64,000 nucleotides of DNA from Winogradskyella algicola (GTDB lineage: Bacteria; Bacteroidota; Bacteroidia; Flavobacteriales; Flavobacteriaceae). The translations under genes and the position numbers were made by a program. Where the stretch lies: the NCBI RefSeq assembly GCF_005869935.1, contig NZ_SZQF01000010.1:1-64000 (forward strand), in the 5' to 3' direction. Below are positions 12,271-37,977 of this stretch, one piece after another; the stretch's first letter is position 1; each line of letters begins with the position of its first letter. The notes beneath the pieces were generated by a model. It searched no databases. It was not told the origin of the DNA and worked only from the letters and a program-made list of their open reading frames with translations.

Positions 12271-13398
12271 TTAATTTTTAATTAACTGCGCACCTTTACC
12301 TACAAAATCTGTAATAAAATGACCGTTTTGGCAAAATGTAGATAATTCATTCTTTATAAACTTTAGCACGCTTTCTTTTTCATTTTCAGGATATAAAACG
12401 TGTACATTGGCGCCTGCATCTAAGGTAAAACAAACATTAGAACTATTCTCCGATCTGTACTTCCAAAGTTTGCTTATTATTTCTAACGTGTTGGGCTTCA
12501 TTAAAATGAAGTAAGGCATACTGGTCATCATCATAGCATGAAGGGTTAAAGCCTCACTCTCAACTATTTTAACGAAAGTTTGTAAATCACCTGATGCTAA
12601 AACGCTTTTGAGTTTAGCCAAATTATCATGCGCTTGGTTAAAACGTTGCTCTGCATAAGGATGACCAAACATTAATTTATGACCAACTGTACTGCTCACC
12701 TGCTTTTCGCCTTTATCTACTAAAAGTATAGTGTCTTGATAATTTTTGAAATTAGGATGTACTTCACCATCAAATTTAATGCCGTACAGATCTGAACTTT
12801 CTGTGCTTTCATTTTGTCCCCAAACTACCAACTCACCTTCAATACTTCTACATGCACTACCAGAACCTAATCTGGCCAGAAAGGATGCTTTTCTTTTAAA
12901 GTAGTTTTTTTCAGAAGACCTTTCGACTGCGCTCAAGGTGACATCTTCCCTTAATTTTTGTTCAATACTCATTAAGCACAATGCCAAAGCACTCATACCT
13001 GATGCGGAAGATGCAATACCTGAGCTATGTGGAAAGGTATTAGAGGTCTCAATTTTGAAATGATAATCTCTTAAAAATGGTACATATGCTTCAATACGCT
13101 CAAAAAATGTTTGAATTTTTGGTTTGAAGGCTTCATTCTTTTCTCCTTCGAAATACACATCAAAACTAAAATCTGATGACACCTTGAGCGCAGTTGAAAA
13201 GTCTTTTTTAGTGTAGGTAAGCTCGGTAATAGTCTTGCAATTAGAAAGCGTAAAGCTTATTGATGGGTTTTCTGGAATTTGATTTTCCTTCTTTCCCCAA
13301 TATTTCACCAATGCTATATTACTTGGAGACTCCCATTTTACTGAGCCACTTTCTATGTGAGCGTTATAATTTTTAAGAATAAAATCTTCGACTATCAT
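12271..13398 (-). CDS. mvaD: Diphosphomevalonate decarboxylase
   Basis: 375 residues, GHMP family. Signature segments: PSNIALVKYWGKKENQIPEN (about 25-44), the phosphate loop TFPHSSGIASSASGMSALAL (121-140), ARLGSGSACRSIEG and the catalytic-Asp segment FTLDAGANVHVLYP. It converts mevalonate diphosphate to isopentenyl diphosphate with loss of CO2. Oddly, two copies of a dispersed intergenic-type repeat are translated inside it: residues about 66-76 (FSTALKVSSDF) and 153-164 (VTLSAVERSSEK). Both lie in stretches that look like surface loops and keep the frame. The DUF1697 gene ends three bases upstream in the same direction, so the genes are co-transcribed. Confidence 0.9.
   Translation of the reverse strand: MIVEDFILKNYNAHIESGSVKWESPSNIALVKYWGKKENQIPENPSISFTLSNCKTITELTYTKKDFSTALKVSSDFSFDVYFEGEKNEAFKPKIQTFFERIEAYVPFLRDYHFKIETSNTFPHSSGIASSASGMSALALCLMSIEQKLREDVTLSAVERSSEKNYFKRKASFLARLGSGSACRSIEGELVVWGQNESTESSDLYGIKFDGEVHPNFKNYQDTILLVDKGEKQVSSTVGHKLMFGHPYAEQRFNQAHDNLAKLKSVLASGDLQTFVKIVESEALTLHAMMMTSMPYFILMKPNTLEIISKLWKYRSENSSNVCFTLDAGANVHVLYPENEKESVLKFIKNELSTFCQNGHFITDFVGKGAQLIKN
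12917..12945. repeat. Dispersed palindromic-type repeat inside mvaD, copy 1
   Basis: The plus strand holds TTTCGACTGCGCTCAAGGTG (from 12921) followed by ACAT. The same core occurs inverted at 13176-13202 and, with changes, in the intergenic gap at 36942-36977. Here it is translated on the minus strand as VTLSAVERS of the decarboxylase. Confidence 0.75.
13176..13202. repeat. Dispersed palindromic-type repeat inside mvaD, copy 2, inverted
   Basis: The plus strand reads GACACCTTGAGCGCAGTTGA (from 13178), matching the reverse complement of copy 1 with a few changes. It is translated on the minus strand as DFSTALKVS, that is, in the opposite reading direction of the repeat from copy 1. Confidence 0.75.
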
Positions 13399-34487: not shown

Positions 34488-36920
34488 CTATTTGTTAAGC
34501 TTTATTTTAATTTCTTTTTCAGTTGTAGTATTCCAAATCACATTAAGCGTTAAGGTTTTATATTTTGAATTATAAGTTCCATTAACCTTTTCTTTTTCTA
34601 CTTTGATTTTATTAGGCTTGCTCTGAATGTTGTGAATAGTTAAAGCAATCGTTTTTGTTTTAGCTGAATAGTTTTTGCCAGTTTCAGCTTCAAATTCTAT
34701 TTCTAACCAATTACCATCAACTTCAGCTTCAAACTCTAAAATTTGAAAAGCTTCATTCGCAATTGGATTGGCTGTTTTTCCATCATCGAAATACAGTTCT
34801 CGCTCAGATTCTGCAATAGAATCATCATGGTAGTATTGTAATTGAAACGTACTATCATCATAATCTTCTGTAGTCTGAACCATATCGGTTAATGGAATAA
34901 AAGCGCCTGCTCTTACATAAACGGGAATAAAATCTTCTCGTAACTGAACGGTTTTTGTTGTGCCTCCTTCTGTAATCTCATCAGTCTCAATATCAAACCA
35001 CTTTGAACCTTTTGGGAAGTAAACGTTTTGCTCTTTTTTGCCTGCTTCTAAAACTGGCGATACCAAAATATCATTTCCCCATAAATAAGTTTTGGTATAA
35101 TTGAATAATTTAGGATTGCTAGGTTCTTCAAACAACAATGGACGCATTAATGGCTTGCCATACTTGTGATTTTCGTACACCAAATTATAGTTATATGGTA
35201 ATAATCTGTATCGCATTGCAATGGCAAAACTCGCTAATCGCTTGGCTTTTTCACTTCTGTAAATTGGCTCACTTGGTACATCTTCTTGAGCGTGCGGTCT
35301 AAAAATTGGATTGAATACTCCATACTGCAACCAACGTACATAAAGCTCATCATCTAAATTTGCGCCTGCAAAACCACCCAAATCACTATGCATAAATGCC
35401 AAGCCTTGCATTCCCATTTGCAATGCAATTTCTGGCTGAATTTGCAGTCCTCCCCAAGTTCGGTTAACATCGCCAGACCAAGGTATCATGCCGTAACGCT
35501 GACTACCAGAATAACCAGCTCGCATTAAAATAAATGGTCTGGTTTCTGGAAAATCGCGTTGATAGCCTTCATGGATTAATCGCGCCCAATCGTGACCATA
35601 AGTATTATGCACTTCGGAAGCCGAACCTGTATGATGTTGTACCCAATCTGGGTGCACTTCTGGCTCACCTAAATCCCCCCAAACACCAGCCACACCTTTG
35701 TTGGCTAAATCTTTATAAATATTCCAAAACCATTGTTCACCTTCTGGTTTGTAGATATCAATTATGCCAGTGTTCCCAAAGTAAAAATCGTACCTAGCAT
35801 CATTTCCTAAAGAATCTTTAGCTAATATATTTTTAGCCACAGCTTCATCCCACTTTTTAGAGGTCGTCAATATAAAAGGTTCTGTAATCGGAATGGTCTT
35901 GACTCCTTTATCATTGAGGCGTTTTACCATGCCTTCAAAATCTGGAAATGAATCTCGGAAGACTTCTAAATTTCCCATAGTGCCTTTAACTTCTTTCCCG
36001 AACCAATATAAGTCTAAAATGATAGCATCAACGGGAATTTTTTCTTCTTTGAATTTAGCTATAGTTTGTTCTACTTCCTCTTGTGAATGGTATCCAAATC
36101 GGCTCGAAAAATTACCTAAAACCCAACGTGGCAACATTGGCTGTTTTCCTGTGAGATTGGTGTAATTATTCAACATATCGCACCACGTATCTCCAACTAT
36201 AATTTGATAGGTTTTACGACCAGAAACGGTTTCGTAAGTTAGAGTGTTGTCGCCTTTGCTGTCCAAATCCAAATACCCAATTGGCGCATTGTCAAAGTGA
36301 ATCATATATTGATTGGACGACAGAACGATTGGTATTGTGTAGTTCATCAATTCGCTATGCGTTTCATAGCCATAATGCGCTCTATTAAACAATGGCAAAC
36401 GATGTCCTCTACGATTCATACCCAATGCTCTTGCTCCTCCTCCATACAACACTTCATTTTTTGACAGGTTGAATTCTATTTTTTCAGTGGAATCGGCAAC
36501 GATATTGCCTTTTACCATATCCATTGGTTCGTGCTTACTTTTGTAGTAACCACGTTTTTCGGAAGTGATAAATTTGTCTTTATAGTAGTATGAGATTTGG
36601 AAAGGTTCTGTAGTCACTTTTATTGAAAGATCCTCCGTTCCAAATTTGATGTCATTACCGACGTAACTGTAATTTGCTTTAACTACTTCAGGTTGAAGTG
36701 TTACAGCATGAGAGTCTGTGTTATATTTTTCATTTGTTGGAATAAAACTTGTTTGAATAATTTCTGACGTGTAAAACTGAAACTTATACGTTCCATCGTT
36801 AGTGACTACCGAAAAAATTCCGTTTTCTTCATTATGTGATTGATATTTTCGGTTTGGGTTTTGTGCAACTATTGAAACCGTTATGAAGAAAATTGAGATG
36901 TGTAGGATGATATGTTTCAT
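34488..36920 (-). CDS. GH31 alpha-glucosidase, secreted
   Basis: 810 residues with a classical signal peptide ending IVAQN rather than a lipobox, so it is probably soluble in the periplasm. GH31 landmarks: an N-terminal beta-sandwich with YGGGARALGMNRRGHRLPLF, the nucleophile in GVWGDLGEPEVH, the acid/base Asp in IPWSGDVNRTWGGLQ and the substrate loop HSDLGGFAG. A DUF5110-type C-terminal beta domain follows. It removes terminal glucose from alpha-glucans, complementing the inverting GH97 enzyme. A dispersed repeat (36942-36977) lies just upstream, in the 70-base gap after the esterase gene. Confidence 0.9.
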   Translation of the reverse strand: MKHIILHISIFFITVSIVAQNPNRKYQSHNEENGIFSVVTNDGTYKFQFYTSEIIQTSFIPTNEKYNTDSHAVTLQPEVVKANYSYVGNDIKFGTEDLSIKVTTEPFQISYYYKDKFITSEKRGYYKSKHEPMDMVKGNIVADSTEKIEFNLSKNEVLYGGGARALGMNRRGHRLPLFNRAHYGYETHSELMNYTIPIVLSSNQYMIHFDNAPIGYLDLDSKGDNTLTYETVSGRKTYQIIVGDTWCDMLNNYTNLTGKQPMLPRWVLGNFSSRFGYHSQEEVEQTIAKFKEEKIPVDAIILDLYWFGKEVKGTMGNLEVFRDSFPDFEGMVKRLNDKGVKTIPITEPFILTTSKKWDEAVAKNILAKDSLGNDARYDFYFGNTGIIDIYKPEGEQWFWNIYKDLANKGVAGVWGDLGEPEVHPDWVQHHTGSASEVHNTYGHDWARLIHEGYQRDFPETRPFILMRAGYSGSQRYGMIPWSGDVNRTWGGLQIQPEIALQMGMQGLAFMHSDLGGFAGANLDDELYVRWLQYGVFNPIFRPHAQEDVPSEPIYRSEKAKRLASFAIAMRYRLLPYNYNLVYENHKYGKPLMRPLLFEEPSNPKLFNYTKTYLWGNDILVSPVLEAGKKEQNVYFPKGSKWFDIETDEITEGGTTKTVQLREDFIPVYVRAGAFIPLTDMVQTTEDYDDSTFQLQYYHDDSIAESERELYFDDGKTANPIANEAFQILEFEAEVDGNWLEIEFEAETGKNYSAKTKTIALTIHNIQSKPNKIKVEKEKVNGTYNSKYKTLTLNVIWNTTTEKEIKIKLNK

Positions 36921-36941
36921 ATATAATAAAATAGATTCCGC

Positions 36942-36977
36942 ATCACACTTCGACTACGCTCAGTGGGACAGTGTGGA
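36942..36977. repeat. Dispersed palindromic repeat, intergenic copy
   Basis: CACACTTCGACTACGCTCAG (from 36944), then TGGGACAGTGTGG; the outer CACACT and AGTGTG are inverted copies and ACT/AGT pair inside. The core TTCGACTACGCTCAGTG matches the two copies translated inside mvaD. It could form an RNA hairpin between two genes of the glucan operon and tune their relative expression. Confidence 0.75.
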
Positions 36978-36990
36978 ATGACAAAGCCGA

Positions 36991-37977
36991 TTAATTAGTT
37001 CCTAACAAAAACAATAAAGGTTGGTCTAACCTTGCATTCCAAGAATTTTCCGAATGGTCTGTACCTTCAAAAAACAGGTTCTTGGCGTTGTCTTCTGTGT
37101 ATCCTTTTTGTTTTAAAATAGCGTCTACTCTTGGTGCGTATTTTGGATAATGTTCGTCTAAAGTTTTGTTACCGTAATCGAGGTACAATTTGTGTTGTCC
37201 AGCTTGTGGTAAATTGACTTCCATATATTTAAAAATGGCATCTGGATATGGATTATTGTCCATTGGCATTGCACCAACCCAATGTGTGGATATACAGGCT
37301 GCACCTCCGAACACTTCTGGATATTCACTAATCGCGTACATAGACATTAAACCTCCCATACTAGAACCCATTACAAAAGTATGTTCTTTATCCTTATAAA
37401 CTGAATACGTGCTATCAATGGTTGGTTTTAATTCTTCAACCAAAAACTTTAAATAATCATTCCCGCTAAAATTAATTTTAGCATCTCCATTTTTAGCTTT
37501 CAAGTTATCCTTGTCTTTTTGAGATAAAAACTCGTGAGCGTTTTCTGGAAAAAGGTCAAACCATCGAATGTTTGCAATGTTATAAATTGCTACAACAATA
37601 AAGTCTTTAGTTTTTCCTTCTGAGATTAATTTTGAAGCCCACTCATCTACTTTCCATTCTTGCTTGTTCCAAGTTGAAGTACTATCAAATAACATTTGGC
37701 CATCGTGCATATATAGTACATTGTATTTTTTGTCTTCGGAATAGTCTTCTGGCAACCAAACATCAACTGGTCTCGGTTTGATGTATTCTGACAGAAAATC
37801 TTCTACTCGCAACAGTCTTCCTGAAGCTAGTTTAGCATCTTCAACCGTTTTGAATTCAACCATAGACTGTTCTTCAGCTTCCAGGGCTGGTGTTAGTGTC
37901 TCATGATTTTTAGTGTTCTCTTTACATGAAAACATTAACAACAGAATTAATATAGTTAGAGAATTAAAGCTTTTCAT
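36991..37977 (-). CDS. Esterase-D-type alpha/beta hydrolase lipoprotein
   Basis: 328 residues with lipobox LLMFSC. An alpha/beta-hydrolase domain of the esterase D/ putative-esterase type follows: YNVLYMHDGQMLFDSTSTWN (oxyanion side), the nucleophile elbow FVMGSSMGGLMSMYAIS and a C-terminal His in FFEGTDHSENSW; the acid residue is likely the Asp of LYLDYGN or nearby. Such enzymes remove acyl groups from carbohydrates or act on small esters. Its place between GH31 and GH13 genes, two bases from the latter, suggests that it deacylates the glucan or an oligosaccharide, but that is inference. Confidence 0.83.
   Translation of the reverse strand: MKSFNSLTILILLLMFSCKENTKNHETLTPALEAEEQSMVEFKTVEDAKLASGRLLRVEDFLSEYIKPRPVDVWLPEDYSEDKKYNVLYMHDGQMLFDSTSTWNKQEWKVDEWASKLISEGKTKDFIVVAIYNIANIRWFDLFPENAHEFLSQKDKDNLKAKNGDAKINFSGNDYLKFLVEELKPTIDSTYSVYKDKEHTFVMGSSMGGLMSMYAISEYPEVFGGAACISTHWVGAMPMDNNPYPDAIFKYMEVNLPQAGQHKLYLDYGNKTLDEHYPKYAPRVDAILKQKGYTEDNAKNLFFEGTDHSENSWNARLDQPLLFLLGTN

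Follow-up and report, generated by a model that had tools for sequence, protein, structure and literature searches.

The stretch of DNA analysed here (the window) comprises 64,000 nucleotides of contig NZ_SZQF01000010.1 from Winogradskyella algicola. Among its genes is one for a protein (MvaD) whose best family match is TIGR01240 (diphosphomevalonate decarboxylase) with 160 bits, under the curated cut-off of 171. The predicted model of MvaD (mean pLDDT 80.7, 40 sequences) superposes on the solved enzyme 2hk2 chain A with Z 32.2 and rmsd 2.8 over 320 residues. A sequence-only reading of the window had proposed that this gene contains two oppositely oriented, translated copies of a dispersed repeat, and that a third copy occupies an intergenic gap. 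We recovered all three: the core TTCGACTGCGCTCA has three matches in the window at no more than 2 mismatches, starting at 12922, 13185 and 36949, of which the first two lie in frame within the minus-strand ORF of mvaD, and the last in a gap flanked by ORFs 34488-36920 and 36991-37977 (Table 1). Dinucleotide shuffles of the window give a mean of 0.20 matches to this core, and none of 100 shuffles reaches three; on the basis of these shuffles and of the reversed-pattern controls a chance origin of the repeat was rejected. A known RNA family was rejected as well, as the Rfam search of the 64-kb window at gathering scores returned two tRNAs only.

Table 1. Host gene and repeat copies in the window
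Feature	Position	Strand	Remarks
mvaD, diphosphomevalonate decarboxylase-like host gene, 375 aa	12271..13398	-	ORF and family scan
REP copy 1 in mvaD, loop S2	12916..12942	-	full 27-nt unit, on the coding strand
REP copy 2 in mvaD, loop S1	~13178..13204	+	orientation opposite to copy 1
Third REP copy, intergenic	~36933..36983	-	TGTC unit nested in an outer hairpin GTCATTCC...GGAATCT

Both copies in mvaD keep the reading frame open. Copy 1 is translated as VTLSAVERS, at about residues 152-162 of MvaD, and copy 2, slightly decayed (tag TGAC and one core change), reads approximately KDFSTALKVS at residues 65-75; the positions originally proposed, 153-164 and 66-76, are thus correct within two residues. 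Placed on the predicted structure model, S1 falls in the turn that joins strands 46-64 and 78-83, and S2 falls at the loop (151-156) that connects helices 132-150 and 157-179, with a mean pLDDT of 55 at residues 151-160. The conserved SSASG and RLGSGSA motifs are found at the opposite ends of the helices that flank S2, hence, judging from these positions in the sequence, the S2 insert probably lies far from the active site.

The repeat unit, which we regard as REP-like, consists in its full form of GTCA, a 5-bp variable stem around GAGCGNAGTCGA, and TCT, which amounts to 27 nt or nine codons. The sequence-only reading would have been undermined by a genome devoid of further copies; the W. algicola genome (G000) holds many, namely 74 matches to YTCGACTGCGCTCR at no more than 1 mismatch, versus none for the reversed pattern. 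In the stretches of G000 that were examined there are 78 sites, 36 of which exhibit the tag TGTC, the 5-bp stem and the interior GAGCGCAGTCGA or a sequence near it. The remaining sites carry other tags but have this interior as well, and may represent sister classes; GTAG does not occur among the 20 commonest tags at the 78 sites. In the stretches of another genome, G061, the tag is TGTC in 48 of 49 sites.

Evidence for the hairpin comes from covariation of the stem. Among 45 unique stems, to which the 74 sites picked by core match alone were reduced, 185 of 225 positions form Watson-Crick pairs, compared with a mean of 101 and a maximum of 130 in 2000 shuffles. The third pair occurs in all four Watson-Crick types; at the TGTC sites the first pair is A-T in 28/36 and the second is C-G, G-C or T-G in 35/36. 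The folding energy of three single units is no better than that of shuffled sequences (z 0.33, -0.02 and 0.21), and therefore the hairpin rests on covariation, single-unit folding being uninformative. Close pairs of units in G000 are inverted in six cases out of nine (five +/- and one -/+) and direct in the remaining three, while all 22 close pairs in the G061 stretches are +/-.

The third copy in the window has counterparts elsewhere in G000. Composites like it are present at C42:65208 and C42:66046, and at C10:962752, C37:95111 and C37:98851 TGTC units are flanked by the two halves of a different hairpin, GTCATYCTGAACT...TGTTTCAG. Such nested hairpins look as if REPs insert into the loops of other REPs, or as if the composite spreads as a unit.

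With respect to the fraction of copies in genes, which the sequence-only reading had singled out as informative, 22 of the 78 G000 sites are within ORFs of at least 120 aa from unrelated families and 56 are outside such ORFs, and in the G061 stretches 4 of 49 sites are within ORFs of at least 150 aa and 45 outside. The host genes, named by family scans with scores in some cases below the family cut-off, include those for DNA polymerase I (two copies), the tRNA ligases GltX, LeuS and ValS, HemW and MvaD, as well as an E2-like acyltransferase, IcmF, MtaB, adenine deaminase, alpha-2-macroglobulin (two copies), an LpxH-like protein, glycosyltransferase-like proteins, a solute-binding protein, an Mfd-like protein (near the start) and PurE (two copies, near the start). 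The copies near gene starts may lie outside the true protein. As the unit is 27 nt long and four of its six frames are usually stop-free by inspection, some genic copies are read through and contribute about nine residues. The phases of the 22 ORF sites (same strand: phase 2 seven times, phase 0 four times and phase 1 twice; opposite strand: phase 0 seven times and phase 1 twice) are insufficient to claim a frame bias beyond open frames. The nine residues could be regarded as a peptide linker kept by selection for protein function, with the likeness to REPs incidental, and it is true that one frame recurs in mvaD and leuS with the pattern V[IT]..S..E.S. However, the copies have a DNA core in common and not a single peptide, translations in other frames and from the reverse strand are found too (VTERSRSD, STALEV, SLSVVEV), and most copies are outside long ORFs, as counted above, so that we give this explanation hardly any credence. 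Two of the host genes show further peculiarities. In polA of G000 two inverted copies (C10:80310 and C10:80349; L059) are located 39 bp apart, both in frame. In the IcmF gene (L073, approximately C39:73528) a TGTC unit read as NVTLSAVEKS is closely followed by the stretch DEILKQVQED, the DNA of which matches many places in relatives.

Outside W. algicola, the exact core was found in 56 of 60 Winogradskyella congeners, with 0-86 occurrences per genome as compared to 0-2 for the control. Of 118 genomes sampled from the phylum Bacteroidota, ten contain the 27-nt form (control 0 in all), with 183 copies in G061, 58 in G131, 13 in W. algicola, 12 in G088 and one or two in each of six others. The open-licence PMC literature, considered in part through the best matches listed, contained no report of a REP family of this core type and 27-nt length or of exchange between REPs, and none of the papers that match spellings of the core sequence is, judged by title, on bacterial repeats. 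In its accessible part, the RepRanger paper (PMC12306157) has a table that names two Flavobacterium genomes.

Comparison with relatives reveals sites with and without the unit. At the gltX site 24 nt are missing in four relatives (G041, G023, G026 and G001), and at the leuS site 27 nt are missing in two (G026 and G041). On a wider scale, 26 gltX loci were parsed (30 of the 59 genomes with gltX were taken as loci, 4 of the 30 remaining unparsed): two have the core, two have a similar longer loop without it, and 22 are short. For leuS (30 of 55 genomes with the gene taken as loci, 3 of the 30 unparsed), 12 of the 27 parsed loci have the core at no more than 1 mismatch, one of them in reverse, nine are short and six have other long loops, two of which read VIASEAKQS or VIASEAQQS. 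In mvaD, S1 comprises 9-10 residues in 48 of 54 congeners; five others contain the core at no more than 1 mismatch (four in reverse, one forward with another tag), and one has a 14-residue loop without the core (in the parsing of congener genes, S1 was left unparsed in 5/59 and S2 in 7/59, and wider anchors were used for the tree). Hence orthologues with short loops in place of the segments do exist, and the outcome that the sequence-only reading named as contrary, orthologues with the same residues encoded by unrelated DNA, did not appear.

The S2 loop was analysed in 112 distinct mvaD genes from the congeners and named Flavobacteriaceae. Thirty-two of them contain the core at no more than 2 mismatches (29 forward and 3 reverse), 43 have a long loop without a clear core, some of which may be decayed REPs and some not, and 37 are short. 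Over the whole of mvaD the core occurs 28 times at no more than 1 mismatch, 22 times in S2, five times in S1 and once at the C-terminus. A search that disregards the core (GTCA...TCT with pairing) detected 12 of the 112 S2 loops, 11 of them with a unit of 27 nt, and outside S2 yielded matches in 4 of the 112 genes, two of which are S1 copies and two 28-nt matches; the 28-nt matches, including that of L111 in S2, are probably due to chance. Some S2 copies hardly lengthen the loop (17 versus 16 residues), and this points to replacement rather than plain insertion. The loop also accommodates more than one type of REP, namely GTCACCTT..., GTCATTCC... and GTCATTCAGAGTGAAAGCGAAGAATCT, with reverse orientation in L209, L216 and L141. 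A pattern for the VIASEA-type leuS unit and the third S2 type, at no more than 3 mismatches, has three matches in G030, 12 in G009 and 10 in G017 (control 0), the leuS copy being among them. In G035 the sole match of this pattern is the S2 copy itself, and therefore that genome lends no support to dispersal of the third S2 type.

A different history for these loops would be a single ancient insertion in each, inherited and decayed since, with the types resulting from drift. On a quick MvaD tree calculated with the S2 loop removed, REP presence or absence requires at least 24 changes, or 20 when long loops are left out, although the number is unsure because 45 of the 109 inner branches have support under 80. 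With the strict definition of a REP the minimum is 12 changes, equal to the lowest value among 200 label shuffles (12-21, mean 17.3), therefore part of the pattern is inherited, and this low count speaks for the ancient insertion. The S1 loops of G011 and G034, with 10 residues reading KRDLSTG/S and no core, might be counted in its favour too, as they are possibly remnants of a deleted reverse-oriented unit. On the other hand, it is at odds with the opposite orientations in S2 (the three reverse copies versus the 29 forward ones), with the occurrence of different REP types that retain intact pairing, and with well-supported sisters that differ at S2: G001/G041 (support 94), L177/L187 (95) and L188/L201 (98). 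We consider it improbable that one insertion per loop accounts for these observations.

A further site bears on exchange between units. In an alpha-2-macroglobulin gene, different unit types occupy the same base in five genomes (G000 and four relatives). The copy in G001 (L278) has the left arm as in G041 and the right arm as in G000, and due to this mixture of arms its stem no longer pairs. This one case suggests that the copy is a product of recombination or conversion, i.e. of REP-to-REP exchange.

Taken together, these data make it likely that both segments of mvaD are copies of a short, mobile, REP-like repeat of Bacteroidota, which would be tolerated in loops and exchanged there between types. 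Direct support is provided by the dispersal of the unit, the covariation of its stem, the open frame, the short sites in relatives, the recurrence in the same loops, the variety of types and the single mosaic. According to the mechanism we propose, the unit would spread for the most part into intergenic DNA and occasionally into genes, where copies that are read through would persist if they sit in variable loops, as in S1 and S2 of MvaD; a REP already residing in a loop could then give way to a different type at an identical position and in an identical phase. Proteins would tolerate such inserts rather than need them, and the exchange would proceed by recombination or conversion between REPs. 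The original movement would involve a single-strand hairpin moved by an enzyme.

A candidate for such an enzyme is a REP-associated Y1 (HUH) transposase (RAYT), which would move the units as single strands. The tag, the irregular stem and the head-to-head pairs resemble the REPs of E. coli, and the two bases 3' of the stem are CT in 15 of 34 TGTC copies of G000 and CC in none; according to the accessible text of PMC8266576, TnpAREP of E. coli cuts at a CT beside the REP and requires a bulge in it. The distribution of the transposase domain PF01797 is nonetheless difficult to reconcile with this role. Genes with PF01797 are present in 26 of the 60 congeners, and no match at E <= 0.001 was detected in G009 and G021, which have 51 and 68 core matches, nor in G061, with 183 copies and a single contig, and G088, with 12; conversely, G158 has ten PF01797 matches but lacks the 27-nt form. 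Thus, in the genomes tested here PF01797 does not track the copy number of GTCANNNNGAGCGNAGTCGANNNNTCT. Among 30 RAYT loci of the genus, taken with up to 1.5 kb per side (less at contig ends), the core at no more than 1 mismatch is present in three and in none of them within 500 bp of the domain, the nearest occurrence being 573 bp beyond it (L253). Moreover, the tag is TGTC and not GTAG, and none of the ORFs between close repeat pairs in the G000 stretches appears transposase-like by eye. RAYT as the mover is thus unsupported by the PF01797 scan of the 60 congeners and six wider genomes and by the 30 loci, and since PF01797 is missing from a genome that has 183 copies, these transposases do not explain the spread. 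The enzyme may have been lost after the spread; even so, we regard the RAYT explanation as unlikely. The absence of PF01797 from copy-rich genomes agrees with what the accessible part of Di Nocera et al. (2013; PMC3733652) states on CGTC REPs, namely that they have no dedicated transposase.

The CGTC REPs of that study are similar to the Winogradskyella unit in several respects: the tag is often TGTC, a small stem-loop is present, head-to-head pairs predominate (22/22 close pairs in G061 and 5/9 in G000 are +/-), Bacteroidetes are among the hosts, and copies reside inside genes for DNA polymerase I and tRNA synthetases. The tag fits the published definition, i.e. CGTC, TGTC or CCTC at one end, whereas the stem and the interior do not: CGTC REPs are described there with a stem of 8-9 bp having A-T as the first and second pair and a loop of 4-5 nt, mostly with a CCA tail, as compared with our 5-bp stem, 12-nt conserved interior and TCT end. 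GTAG REPs with a RAYT, as presented in the accessible text of PMC8266576, share with our unit the imperfect hairpin, the tag at one end and the paired arrangement, but differ from it in that the latter has the tag TGTC and no adjoining RAYT, and is abundant in genomes free of PF01797. The sequence-only reading had likened the repeat to the palindromic elements of Rickettsia. Compared by description, the likeness is justified as far as behaviour is concerned (both are short palindromes that are translated within proteins of unrelated families, essential ones included), but it does not establish membership: RPE-4 and RPE-6 are assigned to CGTC REP families in PMC3733652, several features of which are lacking here, and RPE-1 is described as longer, while the Winogradskyella units have nine codons and, from species to species, differ in type at one loop. 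The NCBIfam models matched by MvaD include none for an RPE. The sequence-only reading had also called it striking that an essential enzyme carries such insertions. The in-frame insert is real, but it is less striking than it appeared, because the inserts occupy variable loops and REPs in such genes had already been published: the accessible part of PMC3733652 reports that REPs occur inside genes, that a single gene can have received two of them, and that genes for DNA polymerase I, uvr genes and tRNA synthetase genes are among the hosts. It also reports that recB of two Xanthomonas species carries different REPs at nearly the same position, which is a parallel to our loops; the mvaD and leuS sites extend it to many species, several REP types and both orientations. 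What appears to be new here is the REP family itself, its nine-codon length, the repeated use of the same loops and the apparent exchange.

A more far-reaching interpretation, which we put forward as a tentative possibility, is that loops of essential enzymes in Flavobacteriaceae serve as docking sites, where REP families swap by conversion in the 27-nt phase after having been founded by an activity other than RAYT. If this is true, REPs would constitute a natural system of exchangeable peptide linkers. As the same hairpin, another hairpin or none is found at the same spot in relatives, REPs can become small natural protein inserts, and the system offers a testable case of "extragenic" repeats editing proteins. 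The same loop across many species provides natural replicates for the study of REP movement, of the rate of conversion and of sites that tolerate nine-residue inserts. REP inserts would also account for the odd peptides that recur in flavobacterial proteins (VTLSAVERS, STTLS and similar), and such REP-derived peptides should not be taken for functional motifs.

A separate observation concerns the RAYT loci themselves, several of which display other inverted repeats upstream, as noticed by eye. In G000, L086:4297-5793 (C10, ~280.3 kb) is an open frame of 498 aa that combines a RAYT-like domain (NF047646, 53 bits, under the cut-off of 80) with coproporphyrinogen oxidase HemF. Sixteen of the 60 congeners have a PF01797 match within an open frame of 492-532 aa, the HemF scan having covered the G000 frame only. 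The RAYT part of L086 is flanked on both sides by GACCTGC-type repeats.
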